Below, piece after piece: positions 1,846 through 18,873 of a stretch of DNA of 64,000 nt (its first letter is position 1; every line of letters begins with the position of its first letter). The translations under genes and the position numbers were made by a program. A model generated the notes under the pieces. The model ran no database searches and had not been told where the DNA came from. It saw nothing but the letters and a program-made list of their open reading frames with translations. The DNA comes from Candidatus Marithrix sp. (GTDB taxonomy: Bacteria > Pseudomonadota > Gammaproteobacteria > Beggiatoales > Beggiatoaceae): assembly GCA_016744775.1 (NCBI GenBank), contig JADGDS010000001.1, forward strand, positions 99,628 through 163,627, read 5' to 3'.

Positions 1846-4800
1846 TTAAGTTTTCTGATCGTGATCAGATTTATCTTGTTGATATTGACTAACTAAATCA
1901 GTTTTTAATTCCACACTACGTCTGTCTGTAGTATTTCGTTTTGAACGTCTTGAAGTTGTTGTTACAACGTCTTCTTCTTCACTTTCAGTTGAAGGCGGTG
2001 TTGGATCTGCTGCTGGTGGAGCCGCCGCTGGCGGCGGAGGTGGTGATTTTTTATTAGAAAATCCGCTGAATATTAAAATAAATATCGCACGAATCCCGTA
2101 AAAAATCATCTTGAATATTCCTAATATTTTTTGGAATGGCGTAAGAATAAACAGAAAAACTGACATAACTGCCATCCAAAGGCGTAACCATAATGGTAAA
2201 CCGGCATTAGGATTCATTGGTTCTATTGGAGGTGCATCATTACCTGCTGCACTGGCTCCAACTAATCTATCTGGTCCAATACTAATACAGCCTAAAGGAA
2301 TAACTATCAAAGTTAATACAGTTGAAACTAATACTCCAAATAATAAAGATATAGCCATACCTTGGAAAATAGGATCTAAAATAATAACACTAGAACCTCC
2401 AACTAAAGCAAAAGCTGTAATCATAATTGGACGAGTACGAGTTTTACAGGCTAATATCACAGCATCTTGTATAGATGAACCTAAATGTATTTGAGCAATA
2501 GAATAATCTACCAACAAAATTGAGTTACGTACAATAATACCTGCTAAAGCAATCCAACCAATCATTGATGTAGCTGTAAATTCAGCATCTAATAACCAAT
2601 GACCCGGAATTATACCTAATAAAGTTAGAGGAATAGGTGCCATAATAATAGCTGGAACAATAAAATTACCAAACAACCAAACCACTAATATATAAATTAA
2701 CACCATTGCTACCGCAAATGCAATACCCATATCACGGAAAGTTTCATAAGTAACAGTCCATTCACCAGTCCATTCAAAACCTGATTTACCAATTTCTGGT
2801 GGTCCAAGATAGCGATCACATAAAGACATTACATAAAGATCGGTACAATTTGCTGAATCTACTAAATTGACACCGTCAGGTGTTTTATAATCCTTTAACA
2901 TTCTCTCAACATCAAACATGCCATAAATAGTAGAACTTTCACTATAGCTATGAGTTTGTTTGTTAAAGATACCTACCGGTTCACCTACCACATATTCAAC
3001 TGGACGTAAATCTTTCTGGAAAATAATAGGATCTTGCCAGTCTTGTTCAAAACTGCCAAGTTCTGCTAAAGGTATAGTGGTGCCTTTTTGTGAAGGTATA
3101 GGTAAATCATACAAACGGCTTAATTGCGCTCTATCTACTAAAGGTACTTGAATCACAATATAAGTTGGCTCCAGCATAGTACCTTGTTTTATATCACCTA
3201 ATTTAAAACCACCTAATGCCATAGATAAGTTATTGTTGATCGTATCAACAGAAATACCGCGTTCTACTGCCTTAGCTGTATCAACCTTAAACCTCCATAT
3301 CTTATGTGGTTTCGCAATTAAATTATCAACATCATCTAAAATTTCTGATTTTTCAAAAACCTGAGTCAAATGTTTAGCCACGGCTTTACGAGTTTCATCA
3401 TCTGGACCATAAACTTCAGCTACTACAGGCTGTAATACAGGTGGTCCGGGTGGCATTTCTACAATTGTTAGATGAGCTTGACTATTAAGTTCTTTAAGCA
3501 ATTTTTTTAATGCTAAACGTGCTTCAACAGCAACTTTATGACTTGGTCTCTGATTTTTTACTAATTGTACATGAATATCTGCTTGCCAAGGTTTATTACG
3601 TAAATAATAATGACGAACCATTCCATTGAAATCAAATGGTTGTGAAGTACCTACATAAGTTTGTAAAGCTATTACTTCAGGAAAATTTTCTTGATCACGT
3701 AATTTTTGAGCTAATTGATATGTCAAATTAGCTGTTACTGGTAAAGGAGTACCTTCTGGCATATCAATAAAAACATTAAATTCAGGTTTTTTATCTAAAG
3801 GTAACATTTTTACTTCAACAGCTTTAAAATAAAACATTGAACAAGCAGCAACAAATAAAAATATCAATCCAAATAAAAATCCTAAACCCAGAATTCTACT
3901 ACTAAATAAAGGTGGTAAAATGGTACGGAATATTTTTTCCCACATTTCACTAGATTTATGTTCCTTATGTTCAGCTTTTTGAAGTACTGCCATTGATGGC
4001 TTGAGACGCATTGCTAACCAAGGAGTAAAAGCAAAAGCAGCAAATAAAGAAAATATCATTGCTACTGAACCTAAAACTGGAATTGGCATCATATATGGTC
4101 CCATCATGCCAGATACAAAACCCATAGGTAATAAAGCTGCAACTACAGTAAAGGTAGCTAAAATCGTAGGATTACCAACTTCGCGCACTGCATCTACGGC
4201 AGTAGCAGTATCGGTTTCACTTTGAAGCAGCCATCGCCGATAAATATTTTCCATCACCACAATAGCATCATCAACTAAAATACCTATAGAAAAAATTAAG
4301 GCAAATAAACTAACTCTATCAATTGACATACCTAATAGCCATGCTGCAAATACTGTTACTAAAATAACTACAGGAATAACTAAAGTTACAACTAGAGCTG
4401 GTCTCCAACCCAAGCTAAATAACACAAGTATTGTTACGGCACCAGTCGCAATAAATAATTTTTTAATTAAACTATTAACTTTCTCATCAGCACTTTCACC
4501 ATAGTTACGAGTAACTTCTACATGAACATTGTCATAAATAACATTACCTTTAAGTGCTTCTACTCGATCTAAGATAGCATTAGCAACAGCCACTCCATTA
4601 GTTAAAACTTTTTTAGAAATAGCAATAGTTACCGCAGATGCTCCATTAACATCTATATTCTTATGATAAGCTGGACCGGAATAATAATTAACCATTTGAT
4701 AAGCTTCTTTTTCTGGACCCTGTGTCACTTCCGCTACATCACGTACATATACAGGAGATCCTTGATAACTACCTACCACTAATTGTGCTACTTCCGTAGC

Positions 4801-9634: not shown

Positions 9635-10192
9635 ATGATATATAATATGGGTTTATATAAATTTAAAATATTAGTAATAACTATAATAATATTATTACAA
9701 TCCTCATTAAGCTACGCAAAACAACCTACCATACGTGAATACCAAATAAAAGCGGTTTATTTATACAATTTTACTTATTTTGTAAGATGGCCTTCAACCG
9801 CCTTTAAAAGTCCAATTTCTCCCTTCAATATTTGTGTTTTAGGTAAAGATCCATTTCGTGGTTTGCTGAAATTAGCTGTGAAAAATGAAAAAGTTGATGA
9901 ACATTCTGTTGAAGTACAAGTTCATAGTTCTGTTAAAAGCACAAGTTCTTGTCACATAATTTTTATAAGCCGCTCTGAAGTAACAAATCTAAGCAAAATA
10001 TTAAAATTTCTAAAACAACGTGCCATTCTGACTGTGAGTGATATTAAAAATTTTGCTCGTGATGGTGGCATGATTCAATTTGTCAATCAAGGTAAACATA
10101 TAAGATTTTATATGAATCGTCGTGCTGCAATAAAAGCGAATGTAAGAATTAGTGCAAATTTATTGTATATAGCCAGAAAACTTTTTCAATAG
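9635..10192 (+). CDS. YfiR-family periplasmic protein (DUF4154)
   Basis: A 185-residue exported protein. After a hydrophobic signal segment (FKILVITIIILLQSSLSYA) comes the family opening IREYQIKAVYLYNFTYFVRWP, then FNICVLGKDPF, CHIIFISRSE, LTVSDIKNFARDGGMIQFV and the closing RRAAIKANVRISANLLYIAR. YfiR is known as the periplasmic repressor of the diguanylate cyclase YfiN. Stand-alone homologues often sit beside TonB-dependent receptors and signalling proteins, as here. The start may be the ATG at 9635 or at 9647; both give a complete signal. The receptor gene begins a few dozen bases downstream on the same strand, so they probably form an operon. No GGDEF partner is in the window. Confidence 0.85.
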   Translation: MIYNMGLYKFKILVITIIILLQSSLSYAKQPTIREYQIKAVYLYNFTYFVRWPSTAFKSPISPFNICVLGKDPFRGLLKLAVKNEKVDEHSVEVQVHSSVKSTSSCHIIFISRSEVTNLSKILKFLKQRAILTVSDIKNFARDGGMIQFVNQGKHIRFYMNRRAAIKANVRISANLLYIARKLFQ

Positions 10193-10259
10193 CCTATATT
10201 TTGCATCTATTATGAATAATATAACTAATTTTAATGAAAAATGTAAAATGAGGCACAAT

Positions 10260-12431
10260 ATGTATATAAAACTATTTATTATCTTAATAAATTTAACAAT
10301 CATAAGTTTTCCAAGCTATGCAGAAGATGAAACGACGGAAGAAGATCGTAAAGCGATAGAATATTTAAAAGGTTTAAAACTAGAAGAATTACCTGATATA
10401 GAAATTACACTAGATCATGTTTTTAATATATTTGATGGGCTAATAAAAGCAAAAAAAGTAACAATTGCTACCGGTCAAGAACAAACAACAGATCGCGCCC
10501 CTTCAGTTACTAGCGTGATAACAGCACAAGACATTGAAGCAACCGGAGCAACTGATTTAGATGAAGTATTGAAAATGGTACCCGGGCTGCATGTAGCAAG
10601 AGATCGTGTTTATGCTCCTATTTACACTATTAGAGGGATGTATTCAAATTTTAACCCACAAGTTTTAATGTTAGTTAATGGTATTCCTATTAATAGATTG
10701 TATCTAGGTAATAGTGGATGGGTATCGGGAGGTATGCCGGTGGCGGCGATTGCTCGTATAGAAGTTATCCGGGGTCCGGGTTCTGCTGTTTTTGGAGCTA
10801 ATGCCTTTGCTGGAGTGATTAATATAATTACTAAAACTAAAAAAGATATTGATGGCACTGAAATTGGTACGCGGATAGGCAGCTTTAATACTCAGGATGC
10901 TTACATATTACATGGTGGAACTTGGGCAGGTTTTGATATTGCGTCTTCTTTAGAATACCGCACTACTGATGGACAAAATGAAATTATTGATATAGATGCT
11001 CAAAGCAATTTTGATAAAAAATTTGGTACCAGTGCTTCTCTTGCGCCGGGAGGCGTAAATATGCAAAGACGTAATCTTGATGCACGAATAGATATTTCTA
11101 AAGACAATTGGCAATTCCGTAGTGGTTATCAAGGACGACGTGACATTGGAACTGGTGCTGGGAGCGGAGAAGCATTAGATCCTATTGGTAATTTTACTGA
11201 TGATCGTTTTAACGCAGATCTTACTTATCATAATAGTACATTTACCGAGAATTGGGATGTTACTGCACAAATAAGTTACTACCAAACTAGGTATAATACT
11301 AATAATCAAACTCTTTTTCCACCCAGTTCTTTTGGTGGTATTTATCCAAATGGAATGATGATTGATACATCAATTTCTGAAACTAACAACCGACTGAATT
11401 TATCAGGATTTTATACCGGTTTTAAGAAACATACTATTCGTTTAGGTACTGGCTATCATTATGGTGATATGTATAAAGTTAAACATTATACTAATACCAA
11501 TCCAACAACAGGACTTCCCATTCAAAGTCTAATGGATATTAGCGATACATCATATAGTTTTATTCCAGAAGGTTCTCGTAAGAATGTTCATGTTTTCTTA
11601 CAGGATGTTTGGAATTTTGCTCCAAATTGGGAATGGACTACTGGATTAAGGTATGATCATTATTCTGATTTTAAATCAACTCTAAATCCACGTTTAGCAA
11701 TAAGTTGGCAACCTTTTTCTGAGTTTACTACTAAACTGATGTATGCTAGTGCGTTTCGTGCCCCCACTTTTTCAGAGTTATATATTACTAGCAATCCTAC
11801 ACACATGGGTAATTTTAATCTGGATCCTGAAACTATTGATACTTGGGAATTGGCATTTAACTATCGTGTCAGAAATAATCTGCATCTAGCAACAAATTTA
11901 TTTAGTTATAAATGGTCAGATGGCATTCGCTATGTACCCGGTGCATCAGAAGGTATTTTAATCGCAAAAAATGTTGGTATTCAAAAAGCTTATGGTTTAG
12001 AATTTGAAGCGCGTTGGAAAATGACAAAAAAATCTAGCTTATTGGCGAATTATGCTTTTGTTAAAGCTAACGATGAAAATAATAATCATGATGCTGGTAA
12101 TTATCCCCAACATTCCGCTTATGTACGCACTGATTGGCTACTAATGCCTAACTTGTTTTTTGATACCCAAATCAATTGGGTTTCGGAAAGACAAAGAAGT
12201 TTTGGTGATCCAAGATCTGCTGTTGACGATTACACCACTGTAGATTTTACCTTACGCCGCAAAGATATTAAAAAAGGACATTGGAATTTTGCAGTCAGTG
12301 TCAGAAACCTATTTGATGTTGATGCCCGTGAACCTAGTCAGGGACCAGATTCCAATGGGGTTATTAACATTCCATATGATTTACCTTTGGCCGGGCGACA
12401 TTATTGGTTAGAATTGCGTTATCATTTTTAG
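10260..12431 (+). CDS. TonB-dependent outer-membrane receptor
   Basis: The frame is open from an ATG at 10212, but the ATG at 10260 gives a clean signal peptide (MYIKLFIILINLTIISFPSYA), so I prefer it. The plug domain is seen in RAPSVTSVITAQDIEATGA, LKMVPGLHVARD, IEVIRGPGSAVFGANAFAGV and NIITKTKK. The rest is a beta-barrel ending in an aromatic C-terminus (YWLELRYHF) as needed for barrel assembly. It imports a siderophore, vitamin or other large ligand with TonB energy; the ligand is not evident. It follows the YfiR-like gene. Its last 68 bases overlap the 3' end of the convergent NRPS gene. Confidence 0.9.
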   Translation: MYIKLFIILINLTIISFPSYAEDETTEEDRKAIEYLKGLKLEELPDIEITLDHVFNIFDGLIKAKKVTIATGQEQTTDRAPSVTSVITAQDIEATGATDLDEVLKMVPGLHVARDRVYAPIYTIRGMYSNFNPQVLMLVNGIPINRLYLGNSGWVSGGMPVAAIARIEVIRGPGSAVFGANAFAGVINIITKTKKDIDGTEIGTRIGSFNTQDAYILHGGTWAGFDIASSLEYRTTDGQNEIIDIDAQSNFDKKFGTSASLAPGGVNMQRRNLDARIDISKDNWQFRSGYQGRRDIGTGAGSGEALDPIGNFTDDRFNADLTYHNSTFTENWDVTAQISYYQTRYNTNNQTLFPPSSFGGIYPNGMMIDTSISETNNRLNLSGFYTGFKKHTIRLGTGYHYGDMYKVKHYTNTNPTTGLPIQSLMDISDTSYSFIPEGSRKNVHVFLQDVWNFAPNWEWTTGLRYDHYSDFKSTLNPRLAISWQPFSEFTTKLMYASAFRAPTFSELYITSNPTHMGNFNLDPETIDTWELAFNYRVRNNLHLATNLFSYKWSDGIRYVPGASEGILIAKNVGIQKAYGLEFEARWKMTKKSSLLANYAFVKANDENNNHDAGNYPQHSAYVRTDWLLMPNLFFDTQINWVSERQRSFGDPRSAVDDYTTVDFTLRRKDIKKGHWNFAVSVRNLFDVDAREPSQGPDSNGVINIPYDLPLAGRHYWLELRYHF

Positions 12432-15400
12432 ATGGTGGCTCTATGAAGCCTATTCTAATTAAATAGGACAAATATGTATCAATTAATTGTTCATTCATTG
12501 GTGGACAATTAATTGAGCTATTTGCTAATCCATTTAATGTGTTTTGACAATCAACATCTGGTGTATTTTGATACCATTCCATTCTAGTAATATTTCCATT
12601 TATTTTTTCAGTTAATAGTGGTAATAAAGGGAATAAAGGATTTTGAGGATTTTTTACACTATTATTAATAATAATATCTGTCCATTGTTTATATGGAAGT
12701 TTATTTAATTTATAACCATATAAGGATATTAATTGAAAAAAATCAATTAAACTAATATTTTTAGAAGTTAAAGGTACGATATGAAAAGCTTTACCTAAAG
12801 ATTCTTTCTGTTGTGATAAATGGATAATTGCTTGACTAGCATAATCAACTGGAATTAATTCATCTTTTTTATTAATTAAATTCGGAAAACTATTACTGTG
12901 TATACACCATTTAATTAACCTAAATATATATTGGTTTGTATAAGCATGTCCAGTTTTACTATGACCTAAAATATTACCAGTTCTGAAAATTGTCACTGGT
13001 ATTCCTCTTGATTTAGCAGTCCATACTAGTTTTTCTGCTACCCATTTACTTTGTACATAACCAACATCAGCAGAAATAAAGTCTTTACTATTATTAATAT
13101 CGTCATATTCCGTGATCACCTTTGGTCGATTTGAACATCCTAGAATACTCATCACTGCAATAGTGGATATATAATGCACAGGTTTTAATTTTTTGCCACA
13201 ACATGCTAATCTTAATACTTCTTGAGTACCTAAAACATTTGCTGATTTTACTATGGAATATGGTTTAGCAAAATTAACTTCAGCACCTGAATGATAAATC
13301 ATATCAATTTGATCGGCTAACTTTTCAAATTGTGGAACAGATAATCCTAGGAATGCTTGTTCTAAATCACCACATATAGCTATTATTCTGTTGCTAACAT
13401 TTGGGTTCCATAAAGCATATTTTTCAAGATTTTTCCGCAATTTTTTGATACCATTGTGTTCATTAGAAGCACGAACAAGACAATATATTTTTGCATCAGT
13501 TTTTTGAAGTAATTCATCAAGTAAATAAGCACCTAGAAACCCTGTTGCTCCAGTTATAAAAATATAATGAGGATTTATCAAAGAACTTTTTAAAAAATTT
13601 TTTCTTGGATAAATATTTTTATCAAGTACTGCTTCTCCATTGAAATCAATAGATTTTTTTAAAACTGAATTACCATTTTTTTGCACAGCATCAACTGTAA
13701 TTGTTAGTTCTGCTATAGTAGGACTTTCAAAAATACATGTTAGAGGTATTTCTACGAATACAGTATTTTTCAATTCAGTCAAAACCTGAACGGCTCTTAG
13801 AGAACTTCCTCCTAAATCAAAAAAATTATCATAAATTCCTACTTGATCCACTTTCAGAAATTTAGCCCATATTCTAGCAAGATGTGCTTCTATAGGATTA
13901 CGCGGTGCTACAAATCTTTCTTTTAATTTAGGACGAATACCTTCAGGTGTAGGTAATTTTTTATGATCTATTTTGCCATTAGGAGTTAATGGTAATGTGT
14001 CCAGTAATATAAAAGCTGATGGTAGCATGTAGTTTGGTAGTTTTTTGATTATAAAAGAGCGTAATTCATCGGTAGATGGTACATGTTGTTTATTAGTAGT
14101 AATATAAGCTATTAATCGTTTATTACCCATATATTCTTCGGTTGTAACGATGACTTCTTTGATTGCTGAATGTTGATTGATTATAGCTTCAATTTCTCCT
14201 AATTCAATACGGAAACCGCTAATTTTAACCTGATTATCAATACGTTCTAAGAATTCCAACTGACCATCAGATAAATATCTGACGAAATCACCGCTTTTAT
14301 ATAACCGATCATTGTTTTTTTTAGTAAATGGATTGGATATGAATTTTTCAGTAGTGAATTTAGGATTCTTAATATAGCCACGTGCAAGACCAATACCACC
14401 AATATATAATTCACCCGGAACGCCTAATGGGACTTGTTGTAAATTATGATCTAATACATATGTTTGTATATTAGCTATTGGTTTTCCAATAGCTGGCTTA
14501 TTACTGCTGTCTGTACATTTCGCTATTGTGGCACATATAGTTGTTTCTGTAGGACCATACGCATTAAATACATTATATTTGGGTATCAAGTTTGCCACTA
14601 ATTTAGCAGAACAGGCTTCTCCTGCAATGATAATTGTTCGTAAAGTTGTTAATTGATTAATAGATAAAGTAGCCAATACAGATGGTGGAAATGTTATAGT
14701 ATTGATATTATAATCATTTATTATCTTTATTAAAGATGGACCCGGTAATAATGCTTTTCGTTTTGCTAAATATAGAGTAGAACCTGATATGAAGGTCATA
14801 AATATTTCTGATATAGAAGCATCAAAGCTAAAAGAAGCAAATTGGAGTATTCTACTTTTATGATGTATATCAAAACTATAAATTTGTGCCTTAGCTAAAT
14901 TACACAATCCTCGGTGTTCAATCATAACCCCTTTGGGTTTTCCAGTCGAACCAGATGTATAAATAATATAAACCAAGTTTTCTGGTCTGGTATTATTTAC
15001 TGGATTTTCTGTACTTTCTTGCGCGATTTTTTCCCAATGACTATCTAAGTTTATTTGTGATTCTGTTAGTAATTTGTTTTCTAAATGTTGTTGGGTCAAT
15101 AATATTTGTACTTTGGCATCTTCTAACATGAAGTTTAAACGTTCTTGTGGATAAGTTGGATCCAAAGGTACATAGGCTCCACCAGCTTTGAGGATGCCTA
15201 ATATTCCTATTATCATTTCTAATGAACGTTCTACGCAAATACCTACTAATGTTTCTGGTTTTACGCCTAGTTTTCTTAGATAGTGTGCTAGTTGGTTGGC
15301 GCGTTGATTTAGTTGTTGGTAAGTTAGTTGTTGGTCTTCAAAAACAAGGGCTATTGCTTCTGGTGTATGTTCAACTTGTTGTTCAAATAGTTGATGGATA

Positions 15401-18400
15401 CATTGTTTGTCTGGTAAAACTTGTGAGGTGTTATTCCATTCTCTGAATTGTTGTTGTTCTGCTTCTGTTAATAGAGTTAAGTGTGAGATAGATTGTTGAG
15501 GATTCGCTATTATGCTTTCTAATAGAGTCTGATAATGACCTATCATACGGATAATACGTGATTGATCAAATAGATCGGTGTTGTATTCAATGCGACCAAT
15601 AATACCTTCTGGTCTTTCATCTAATTCTACAGTTAAGTCAAATTTTGAAGTAGCTGTATGAATATCAAGTTGACTTGGAGTCCAACCAGATTCAAGATTC
15701 AAGATTGTAGGTTCCATAATAAAGGATACTTGAAATAGTGGATTGGTTCCTAAATTACGGTCTGTTTGTAATTCATTCACTACTTTTTCAAATGCTAAAT
15801 CTTCATGAGCGTAAGCTTCTAAAGTTACTTCTCGTACCCGTTTTAGTAGTTGTTGAAAACTTGGTTGTTTTGATAGATCAGTACGTAAAACTAGGGTGTT
15901 CAGAAAAAATCCAAAAATTTGTTCTAATTCAGGTTTATTACGACCAGCGGTTACTGTTCCTACCGGAATATCTTCTTGCCCAGTATAACGATATAATAGC
16001 ACATTAAATGCTGCGAATAGGGTCATAAATAAGCTTACGCCCTCTTTTTGACTGAGTTCTTTTAAGGATTCAGTTAGTTGTTTAGATAATGCTAAACATT
16101 GTCTCGCGCCATTATAGCTTTGTTGTGCTGTTTTTGGATGATCTGTAGGTAGTTGTAGGCTTGGTAAATCTGCTAGTTGTTGTTTCCAATATTTTAGTTG
16201 ATCTTCTAAATCTGATTGTTGTCGTTGCCAAATTGCATAGTCTGCGTATTGAAGATGAGGTGTTTCCAGTTGAGGAATTGCGCCCTTAGAAAAAGCTTTG
16301 TAAATCTGTTCTAATTCTGGTAAGAAGATGTTATATATAGAAATACCATCTAAAATAATATGATGCCAAGTTAGAAATAAGCGATAGTCTTGATCATCTA
16401 ATTTAATTAGAGTGGCACGAAATAATGGACCAGTTAGCAAATCAAATGCTTTGATTGCTTCTTTGGTGGCAATTTTTAAACTTTCAGTTTCTCGTTCATT
16501 TGCTGGCAAGTTAGTCAAATCTATTAGCGGCAATGTGAATGAAATGGATGGAGAAATAATCTGAACTGGTTTGCCTTCTACTATTTTAAATGTGGTTCGG
16601 AAGGCTTCGTGACGTTGTATAATTTCTTTGATGCTTTGTTCTAAAATAGCAGCATTAATAGATCCTCCGAGATGAATGGTAGTTGGCTCATTATAGACTG
16701 GCATCGATTCAGGTATCAGTTGCTGAACTAGCCATAATTGTTGTTGAGCAAAGGATAATGGAATATCATTGTTTCGTAGTGCTGGTTTGATATTGTTTTG
16801 TGAATCCTGTTTAGGATTAGTTTCTATCTGCTTAGATAATTCTGCAATTGTGGAAGTTTCAAATAAACAATATAAGGGTAAGTTAATTTGTAATTCATTA
16901 TTGATCCGAGAAATAATACGAGTTGCTAATAATGAATTTCCACCTAATGCTAAAAAGTTGTCATGAATACCAATGACTTTTTGTGGTAGGAATTCAGACC
17001 AAATTTGTATGATTTTTTCTTGAATTAAAGAATAAGTTTGAAATGATTCAGCGGCGGGTAGTGCTTGACGATCAATTTTTCCATTTGCTGTAAGCGGTAA
17101 ACTATCAAGTATCACAAAATGTGATGGTATCATGTAGTTTGGTAATGATTTTCCCAAAAAGTCGCGTAGATGTTCAACTATAGTGTTTTGTAAGGCATTC
17201 AATAAACCTTTTTTTTCTAATAAAAATTTTATGCTATGATTTATTGTATTTTGTTGATTTGGTGTTAAGTCAAATTCAATTCCTGCTCGTTGTTTGTAAA
17301 TCCATGCAATTTTGCCTTTTAGCCATAAGTCATTATCTGTTTCCGGCAACCATAGTTGTAGGTGAAGTTGTTGACCGATTTTGTAATCATCTGGCATTCC
17401 TAATAAGTCAACTCCACAAGGGGATATTTCTTCTGTTGTTAATTCTATTTGATGTTGATTATCAAATTCTACTATACACGCACTGTGCATAGGTACTCGT
17501 TCTAAAGCTGCTTGATATACAATATAAGCAACTAGTTGTTTATCATTAAGTTTATCTTTTTGAGCAACAACTACTGTATTTTCTATACCGGGATGTTTTT
17601 GTAATTTTGCTTCAATTTCTTCTAGTTCTATACGAAAACCACGAATTTTAACTTGATGATCAATTCTGCCTAAAAATTCTAGTTTGCCATCTGAACGATA
17701 ACGCGCTAAGTCACCAGTTTTGTATAATCTTCCATTTGGAGTATTAATAAATTTTTCGCTGGTAAGTTCAGGACGATTGAGATAAGCTCTTGCTAAGCCA
17801 ACACTGCCTATATAAAGTTCTCCCGCAACACCAATTTCCACCTGTTGCATTTGCTTGTCTAAGACATAAATTTGGGTATTAGCTATAGGAGTACCAATGG
17901 GAGGGCTATGATTATTATTGGTGCATTTTTCTATAGTGGCACATACTGTTGCTTCTGTTGGTCCATAAGCATTGTAAAAGTTACGACCGGGTGCCCAACG
18001 GGTTATAAGTTCGCTAGAACAACTTTCTCCAGCTACGATAATAGTTTGTAGCTTAATTAAATTTTCTTCTACTGGTAAAGATGCTAGTACAGATGGTGGT
18101 AAGGTAACAGTAGTAATTTCTTGTGTACGCAGAAATTTTATTAAAGGAGTACCGGGTAGTAATGTATTTCGTGTTCCCAAATAGAGGTTAGCACCTGCTA
18201 TTAGTGCCATAAAAATCTCTGATGTTGAAGCATCAAAACTAATAGAAGCAAATTGGAGTACACGATCATCAGCTTTTATATTAAATGCTTTAATTTGTGC
18301 AGTAGCTAAATTACATAAGCCACGGTGTTCAAGTAGTACGCCTTTTGGTTCACCAGTTGATCCTGATGTATATATGCAATATGCTAAGTTGTCTGGCTTG

Positions 18401-18873
18401 GTTTTGTTAATTGGGTTTTCAGTAGTTTCTTGAGATATGTTGTGCCAATCTTTATCTATTGATACTATTTTAGCTTTATTTTGTGGTAGGATAGTGGATA
18501 ATTGATCTTGGGTTACTATTACTGATATTTGAGAATCTTTTAGCATAAATGCTAAACGTTCTTTTGGATAAGATGGATCTAAAGGTAGATAAGCTCCACC
18601 AGCTTTGAGAATGCCTAGTAAGCCTACTATCATTTCTATTGAACGTTCAATAGAAATTCCTACTAATATTTCTCGTCTTATGCCTAATTTTCTGAGATAA
18701 TGGGCGAGTTGGTTGGCTTGATTGTTCAGTTGTCGATAAGTAAGTTGTTTATCTTCAAAAACAATTGCAATTGCCTCTGGAGTGCGTTCTACTTGTTGTT
18801 CAAACAGTTGGTGAATGCACACACTATCTGGATAAGGTGTATAAGTATTATTCCATTCAACTGGTGGTATCAT
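12364..18873 (-). CDS. Two-module non-ribosomal peptide synthetase with terminal reductase (A-T-C-A-T-R) and a PilZ-like insert in A1
   Basis: 2169 residues. A1 (about 1-605) has A3 YTSGSTGEPKG, A7 LYKTGDLARY and A10 NGKIDR, with a PilZ-like insert at about 455-560 between A8 and A10. T1 carries GGNSL at 644-648. The C domain has active HHIILDG at 837-843. A2 runs from about 1150 to 1640. T2 carries LGGSSL near 1690. The NAD(P)-binding thioester reductase begins at about 1768 (ITGATGFLGAYLL) with YVQSK. Aligned by hand to GrsA, the specificity residues read DASTIAAVCK (A1) and DASTIAAICK (A2), close to Phe/Tyr codes. This is the layout of aureusimine synthetase AusA, which releases dipeptide aldehydes that cyclise to pyrazinones, so an aromatic dipeptide aldehyde is inferred. 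No phosphopantetheinyl transferase is nearby. Confidence 0.93.
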   Translation of the reverse strand: MIPPVEWNNTYTPYPDSVCIHQLFEQQVERTPEAIAIVFEDKQLTYRQLNNQANQLAHYLRKLGIRREILVGISIERSIEMIVGLLGILKAGGAYLPLDPSYPKERLAFMLKDSQISVIVTQDQLSTILPQNKAKIVSIDKDWHNISQETTENPINKTKPDNLAYCIYTSGSTGEPKGVLLEHRGLCNLATAQIKAFNIKADDRVLQFASISFDASTSEIFMALIAGANLYLGTRNTLLPGTPLIKFLRTQEITTVTLPPSVLASLPVEENLIKLQTIIVAGESCSSELITRWAPGRNFYNAYGPTEATVCATIEKCTNNNHSPPIGTPIANTQIYVLDKQMQQVEIGVAGELYIGSVGLARAYLNRPELTSEKFINTPNGRLYKTGDLARYRSDGKLEFLGRIDHQVKIRGFRIELEEIEAKLQKHPGIENTVVVAQKDKLNDKQLVAYIVYQAALERVPMHSACIVEFDNQHQIELTTEEISPCGVDLLGMPDDYKIGQQLHLQLWLPETDNDLWLKGKIAWIYKQRAGIEFDLTPNQQNTINHSIKFLLEKKGLLNALQNTIVEHLRDFLGKSLPNYMIPSHFVILDSLPLTANGKIDRQALPAAESFQTYSLIQEKIIQIWSEFLPQKVIGIHDNFLALGGNSLLATRIISRINNELQINLPLYCLFETSTIAELSKQIETNPKQDSQNNIKPALRNNDIPLSFAQQQLWLVQQLIPESMPVYNEPTTIHLGGSINAAILEQSIKEIIQRHEAFRTTFKIVEGKPVQIISPSISFTLPLIDLTNLPANERETESLKIATKEAIKAFDLLTGPLFRATLIKLDDQDYRLFLTWHHIILDGISIYNIFLPELEQIYKAFSKGAIPQLETPHLQYADYAIWQRQQSDLEDQLKYWKQQLADLPSLQLPTDHPKTAQQSYNGARQCLALSKQLTESLKELSQKEGVSLFMTLFAAFNVLLYRYTGQEDIPVGTVTAGRNKPELEQIFGFFLNTLVLRTDLSKQPSFQQLLKRVREVTLEAYAHEDLAFEKVVNELQTDRNLGTNPLFQVSFIMEPTILNLESGWTPSQLDIHTATSKFDLTVELDERPEGIIGRIEYNTDLFDQSRIIRMIGHYQTLLESIIANPQQSISHLTLLTEAEQQQFREWNNTSQVLPDKQCIHQLFEQQVEHTPEAIALVFEDQQLTYQQLNQRANQLAHYLRKLGVKPETLVGICVERSLEMIIGILGILKAGGAYVPLDPTYPQERLNFMLEDAKVQILLTQQHLENKLLTESQINLDSHWEKIAQESTENPVNNTRPENLVYIIYTSGSTGKPKGVMIEHRGLCNLAKAQIYSFDIHHKSRILQFASFSFDASISEIFMTFISGSTLYLAKRKALLPGPSLIKIINDYNINTITFPPSVLATLSINQLTTLRTIIIAGEACSAKLVANLIPKYNVFNAYGPTETTICATIAKCTDSSNKPAIGKPIANIQTYVLDHNLQQVPLGVPGELYIGGIGLARGYIKNPKFTTEKFISNPFTKKNNDRLYKSGDFVRYLSDGQLEFLERIDNQVKISGFRIELGEIEAIINQHSAIKEVIVTTEEYMGNKRLIAYITTNKQHVPSTDELRSFIIKKLPNYMLPSAFILLDTLPLTPNGKIDHKKLPTPEGIRPKLKERFVAPRNPIEAHLARIWAKFLKVDQVGIYDNFFDLGGSSLRAVQVLTELKNTVFVEIPLTCIFESPTIAELTITVDAVQKNGNSVLKKSIDFNGEAVLDKNIYPRKNFLKSSLINPHYIFITGATGFLGAYLLDELLQKTDAKIYCLVRASNEHNGIKKLRKNLEKYALWNPNVSNRIIAICGDLEQAFLGLSVPQFEKLADQIDMIYHSGAEVNFAKPYSIVKSANVLGTQEVLRLACCGKKLKPVHYISTIAVMSILGCSNRPKVITEYDDINNSKDFISADVGYVQSKWVAEKLVWTAKSRGIPVTIFRTGNILGHSKTGHAYTNQYIFRLIKWCIHSNSFPNLINKKDELIPVDYASQAIIHLSQQKESLGKAFHIVPLTSKNISLIDFFQLISLYGYKLNKLPYKQWTDIIINNSVKNPQNPLFPLLPLLTEKINGNITRMEWYQNTPDVDCQNTLNGLANSSINCPPMNEQLIDTYLSYLIRIGFIEPPSKNDNAILTNNVARPKVNHMEC
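17194..17511 (-). other. PilZ-like domain inserted in NRPS adenylation domain A1
   Basis: Residues of about 455-560 interrupt the C-terminal subdomain of A1; A2 lacks any equivalent. The segment contains RVPMHSACIVEF, EEISPCGVDLLGMP, a strand pair (IGQQLHLQLWLP) and LKGKIAWIYKQRAGIEF, following the PilZ order. The c-di-GMP motifs RxxxR and (D/N)xSxxG are degenerate here: RVPMH and EISPCG. The fold assignment is by pattern, and nucleotide binding is uncertain. Confidence 0.6.

Follow-up and report, generated by a model that had tools for sequence, protein, structure and literature searches.

Interrupted adenylation (A) domains of nonribosomal peptide synthetases (NRPSs), such as those of KtzH, TioS, TioN and ColG, carry a foreign domain between motifs a8 and a9 while keeping their A motifs, and a review of these proteins names methyltransferase, oxidase and ketoreductase inserts and does not mention PilZ (PMC11355689). 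Because Pfam counts 221 PilZ architectures (PMC7288161), an automatic listing of a PilZ and A-domain combination may exist somewhere. In the literature searched, which left most subscription papers outside its reach, we found no description of PilZ within an NRPS adenylation domain, in line with the preliminary description, which knew of none. Here we analyse such an arrangement in a 64,000-nt stretch of a Candidatus Marithrix genome (the window; contig JADGDS010000001.1, positions 99,628 to 163,627), where an NRPS of 2169 aa shows the Pfam order AMP-binding, carrier, condensation, AMP-binding, carrier and thioester-reductase domain. The features of the gene, with window coordinates and the basis of each where recorded, are as follows.

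12364..18873 (-), NRPS gene, 2169 aa, A1(PilZ)-T1-C-A2-T2-Red (open reading frame and Pfam)
17650..18816 (-), A1 core, residues about 20-408 (Pfam)
18340-18372 (-), A3 motif YTSGSTGEPKG of A1 (sequence)
17617..17649 (-), A8 motif KIRGFRIELEE of A1, residues 409-419 (sequence)
17170..17517 (-), insert (residues about 453-568), flanked by strand LVAYIV and helix LRDFL
17233..17502 (-), PilZ domain, Pfam PF07238, residues 458-547 (profile and model of a relative)
17497..17499 (-), Arg459, second Arg of RxxxR, with Ala455 at the first-Arg position (superposition of a relative)
17413..17430 (-), EISPCG, residues 482-487, the (D/N)xSxxG motif, in which Glu replaces Asp
17053..17145 (-), A9 (LPNYMIP) and A10 (NGKIDRQALP) of A1, with catalytic Lys599 (sequence)
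16831..17019 (-), T1 carrier domain, residues 619-681 (Pfam)
15448..16770 (-), condensation domain, residues 702-1142 (Pfam)
13972..15387 (-), A2, core 1163-1500 and C-terminal subdomain 1560-1634, insert-free (Pfam and A8-A10 spacing)
12826..13557 (-), terminal thioester reductase domain, residues 1773-2016 (profile matches)

No Rfam family was found around the gene, and a promoter scan there gave matches not above chance expectation. Relative to the sister species (L163), the A1-T1-C half is 84-94% identical and the A2-T2-Red half 61-70% identical with higher dS, an uneven divergence that suggests recombination in the 3′ half of the gene.

The preliminary description had placed about 100 extra residues between A8 and A10 of A1 and none in A2, and the spacings bear this out, with 199 residues from A8 to A10 in A1 and 93 in A2; the stretch at 17194-17511 (-) corresponds to residues 455-560 of the NRPS. 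Joined to each other, the A1 flanks give 90 residues that align without a break to LgrA, GrsA and tyrocidine synthetase, and in those alignments a loop of 8 residues occupies the insertion point in ordinary A domains (LgrA, GrsA and others). Alignment of the joined flanks to the A-M-A structure of TioS (5wmm) stops at the identical residue, and in two cyanobacterial PilZ-bearing synthetases the A8-A10 spacing of the next module is 509 residues, with a much longer insert at the same point that is putatively the usual a8-a9 methyltransferase. Because its junction matches both 5wmm and these long-insert A domains, the A1 insert fills a site already known as a hot spot for A-domain interruption, where the PilZ barrel substitutes for the short a8-a9 loop of the C-terminal subdomain (A_sub). 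Motifs A3, A8, A9 and A10, with Lys599, are intact on both sides of it; by junction and motifs A1 is thus an interrupted adenylation domain, and its adenylation activity is predicted from the motifs. That the insert is an ordinary A-domain subdomain was rejected, since A2 and the reference A domains have a short loop there.

PilZ had been proposed for this insert from its order of strands, and both profiles and models uphold that proposal. In the whole NRPS, PF07238 scores 29.1 bits (E=1.3e-6; curated cut-off 22.5 bits), and the excised A1 segment scanned alone scores 35.1 bits (E=1.8e-8). PilZ is the sole Pfam match within the insert and no enzyme family was found there, which argues that it is not a catalytic tailoring domain; similarly, each of the 24 related segments scanned alone (24/24) matched PilZ and nothing else. 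A chance match was considered and rejected, as the sister species keeps the insert and some 49 distinct embedded copies exist. An AlphaFold2 model of the whole window A1 (13 sequences) is mediocre at pLDDT 69, too weak for positioning PilZ against the A core and not used for that, but its insert part reaches pLDDT mostly 75-91 and shows the PilZ strand order. The relative L088, a stand-alone protein of 203 residues that is 41% identical to the window segment, gave a model with pLDDT 89, in which residues 44-140 superpose on the PilZ domains of BcsA (Z 14.2), Alg44 (Z 13.1) and YcgR (Z 12.8), with MotI and MrkH also among the matching PilZ structures. The two ends of L088 jointly superpose on A_sub, with Z 13.3 for tyrocidine synthetase and Z 12.4 for the interrupted A domain of TioS, so that the model presents two folds in one small protein, PilZ within A_sub. 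Profile and model together identify the window insert as a PilZ domain inside A1.

Homologous NRPSs, in which a search for the same insert had been suggested, contain it repeatedly. Genome contigs were scanned with a six-sequence subset of the alignment. In the family of the window, large sulfur bacteria together with Ca. Parabeggiatoa, 17 of 43 genomes had a match. The NCBI taxonomy names this family Thiotrichaceae, and GTDB names it Beggiatoaceae. One of the 17 matches is a polyketide synthase (PKS) form, a PKS-like protein (L160:6391-9021 (-)) with a partial ketosynthase match and an acyltransferase, and with PilZ after the acyltransferase. The cyanobacterial class sample gave strong matches in 9 of 390 genomes, and cyanobacteria with an embedded PilZ are Argonema, Nostoc linckia, Dendronalium, Laspinema and Microcoleus. 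A tandem pair of PilZ domains occupies the same place in A_sub in three gammaproteobacterial genomes of other families (L054, L055 and L056); no further tandem form was found in the orders of two of these genomes, represented by one or two genomes each. Across the Pseudomonadota-wide sample, besides the two copies of the host, matches were weak, lay mainly in short frames and are improbable as NRPS inserts, and the plasmid collection gave no match. In total the embedded architecture comprises 49 distinct segments with A9 and A10 downstream, and the A10 Lys is present in 49/49.

Three PilZ-NRPSs (L159:5144-9778 (+), L019 and L089) read C-A(PilZ)-T followed by a C-terminal domain of roughly 400 residues that matches the PigE and SbnB families only weakly and may be an unusual release or reductase domain. 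Upstream of the second PilZ-NRPS of the L159 genome lie two adjoining 577-aa genes with identical starts (L159:1222-2952 and 3003-4733 (+)). The Argonema NRPS (L084:4967-11581 (+)) contains three PilZ segments, and one of its A_sub-PilZ units stands behind another without an A core of its own, a duplicated A_sub-PilZ module.

On the A-core tree, 8 changes are required to account for the PilZ label, 7 of them forced by well-supported branches, and the label clusters barely above shuffled labels; the insert-free core nearest to that of window A1 is A2 of the same protein. Scatter over unrelated cores implies that the insert does not go with one particular substrate, and suggests that PilZ-bearing A_sub units have joined many different A cores, or that the cores beneath them have been exchanged, as in known NRPS recombination. 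Sequences from cyanobacteria and sulfur bacteria intermingle in the PilZ tree (116 columns), a pattern that favours horizontal transfer. Such mobility would suit a folded spacer that is merely carried along in A_sub-T recombination and has no effect on activity, the more so as engineered A domains tolerate foreign a8-a9 inserts (PMC11355689). Yet the insert is 86% identical to that of the sister species with a dN/dS of about 0.27, compared with 86% and 0.25 for the A1 core, and is thus under purifying selection as strong as that on the enzyme core. Together with the conservation of the ligand-site columns and the retention of stand-alone genes that have lost the adenylation lysine, this makes a neutral passenger quite improbable.

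These stand-alone genes constitute the second architecture, in which six proteins of about 200 residues consist of A_sub and PilZ alone. They form one clade (support 100/99) nested among the embedded forms of the PilZ tree, and the A10 Lys is lost in 6/6, replaced by GQ or GE. In six genomes of the family, the genes (L152-L157, for example L154:7273-7863 (-)) lie behind rmlA-rmlC; rmlB is upstream in most and rmlD downstream in two, so that these are loci of dTDP-rhamnose genes, with a short additional gene intervening at some of them. The lost lysine and the rml operon setting imply that the module was retained without adenylation chemistry, and the stand-alone protein is possibly a regulator of rhamnose or exopolysaccharide synthesis that originated as a fragment of an NRPS. 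Surface polysaccharide is a setting in which PilZ regulators often act. A further stand-alone A_sub (L158:6737-7732 (-)) carries a pair of PilZ domains, of which the second has complete RxxxR and DxSxxG motifs, and adjoins ParA/MinD-like and ferredoxin-like genes.

The residues that contact the ligand in canonical PilZ domains are partly conserved and partly lost. Superposition of L088 starts one residue ahead of its conserved Arg and sets this Arg on R118 of YcgR and R21 of Alg44, each the second Arg of RxxxR; the register holds if the first aligned residues are free of gaps. In YcgR, the arginines of RxxxR are R114 and R118 (PMC7288161). Transferred to the window, the superposition makes Arg459 the second Arg (R2) and leaves Ala455 at the position of the first, so that the two motifs singled out by the preliminary description as degenerate fare differently: EISPCG is indeed (D/N)xSxxG with Glu for Asp, but RVPMH is not the counterpart of RxxxR. 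Among the 55 single-insert and stand-alone relatives, R2 is invariant (55/55) and the first Arg is found in none (0/55), its position usually being Leu; it is missing because an A_sub strand and linker replace the N-terminal, RR-containing loop of PilZ. The Asp of (D/N)xSxxG is present in 52/55, and the ExSxxG of the window and its sister species stands against DxSxxG in most relatives. Across the 55 sequences two PilZ columns are invariant, those of R2 and the motif Gly; by entropy Ser ranks sixth and Asp eighth. In two of the three tandem forms, copy 2 has complete motifs (RKDFR and DFSCGG in L055, RTNFR and DISRDG in L056); copy 2 of L054 is without complete motifs.

The preliminary description had offered a synthetase gated by, or derived from, second-messenger sensing, and these residues separate the two. 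Derivation is supported by homology and by the tandem relatives with intact RxxxR and DxSxxG. Direct gating, in which c-di-GMP on the embedded PilZ would switch window A1 on and off, could draw on the retention of R2, Ser and Gly among the most conserved columns, and on a host genome with 3 GGDEF proteins in which the only two PilZ domains found are both NRPS-embedded. Near the NRPS, moreover, lies a YfiR-like gene, whose broader family is known for its control of a diguanylate cyclase. This gene belongs, however, to the TOL_0243 family and sits beside a TonB-dependent receptor gene; the pair (window 9635-12431 (+)) is convergent with the NRPS and not co-transcribed with it, the 3′ ends overlapping by 68 bp in an order kept in the sister species (L163). 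The site itself also argues against gating, as motif tests find neither the RxxxR nor the (D/N)xSxxG of c-di-GMP-binding PilZ domains in the window protein. Both arginines matter where they have been tested: mutation of the first abolishes c-di-GMP binding in Tlp1, Cbp1 and DgrA, mutation of the second does so in YcgR (PMC6454048), and binding is abolished when both are mutated together (PMC11800159). With the first Arg gone and Glu in place of Asp, canonical c-di-GMP binding by the window protein is unlikely on sequence grounds, and we regard direct gating as a poor candidate. The conserved R2, Ser and Gly may have a structural role instead of binding a ligand.

Degenerate motifs would fit better with a PilZ domain that has no ligand and recruits a partner, whether membrane, pilus, polysaccharide machinery or another synthetase, in the manner of type IV pilus PilZ proteins. 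PilZ proteins without ligand binding can be adaptors (PMC7288161), and the stand-alone A_sub-PilZ proteins are encoded in operons for rhamnose, a cell-surface sugar. Unlike motif-less adaptors, though, this group still has R2, Asp, Ser and Gly among its most conserved columns, and docking by itself is a tentative explanation, on the unlikely side.

A_sub is the mobile part of the A domain, which turns as the domain passes from the adenylation to the thiolation state, and in YcgR-type PilZ domains the stretch with the first Arg of RxxxR clamps c-di-GMP. Because A_sub rotates during catalysis, a PilZ domain located on it could steer catalysis. In the embedded form, the linker from PilZ to A_sub takes the position of the stretch that holds the first Arg, so that the place of the switch loop would be the hinge itself. 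We infer that a ligand or partner on PilZ would alter the freedom of A_sub, favouring or hindering one state, and would thereby change the rate of amino-acid activation or loading, irrespective of the amino acid. Probably, c-di-GMP was the ligand of the ancestral or tandem form. The single-insert lineage, including the window, lacks the first Arg, which was probably lost at the fusion, and for the window protein a partner, or a ligand site that is altered or weak, is a likelier mode of action than canonical c-di-GMP binding. As a whole, the observations are best explained by a module, regulatory or docking, that is carried on the moving A_sub and derives from c-di-GMP sensing, a reading to which we assign a probability of roughly 0.6. 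A more ambitious version is plausible but unlikely: that of an NRPS family whose amino-acid activation is under direct c-di-GMP control through the A_sub-embedded PilZ, by a complete site in the tandem forms and an altered one in the single-insert forms, with the same cassette reused as a stand-alone protein in rhamnose or exopolysaccharide operons.

If a regulatory or docking module on A_sub is correct, NRPS assembly lines would be open to post-translational control by signals such as a second messenger, and the recurrence of the insert in large sulfur bacteria and mat-forming cyanobacteria hints at direct signal control of natural-product synthesis, although part of the signal-binding site is lost in the window copy. 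The PilZ-NRPSs offer a place to test control of peptide synthesis by c-di-GMP or a partner in mat-forming bacteria, and in the insert nature provides an example of a control module that can be inserted into engineered synthetases.

Compared with described systems, the junction of window A1 is the interruption point of TioS (5wmm) and of the long-insert A domains of Nostoc and Dendronalium. Interrupted A domains were previously known only with tailoring enzymes: the inserts of KtzH, TioS, TioN and ColG are methyltransferases, ketoreductases or oxidases, whereas the window insert is a non-catalytic, signal-sensing fold, placing a sensor-type domain at that point. Cellulose synthase BcsA and the alginate protein Alg44, which are among the best structural matches, likewise combine PilZ with a biosynthetic machine, but there PilZ is appended and has a full RxxxR, whereas in the window it is spliced within the catalytic domain and lacks the first Arg. 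Type IV pilus PilZ proteins (the FimX/PilB system) share an incomplete c-di-GMP motif with the window and give weak profile matches; they have lost the canonical ligand residues (PMC7288161), whereas in the window group R2, Ser and Gly are invariant or nearly so. Finally, a Leptospira YcgR with a GAF-like insert (PMC11800159) is likewise a domain-in-domain arrangement involving PilZ in which both folds are kept, but its PilZ domain receives the insert, whereas in window A1 PilZ is itself the inserted domain.
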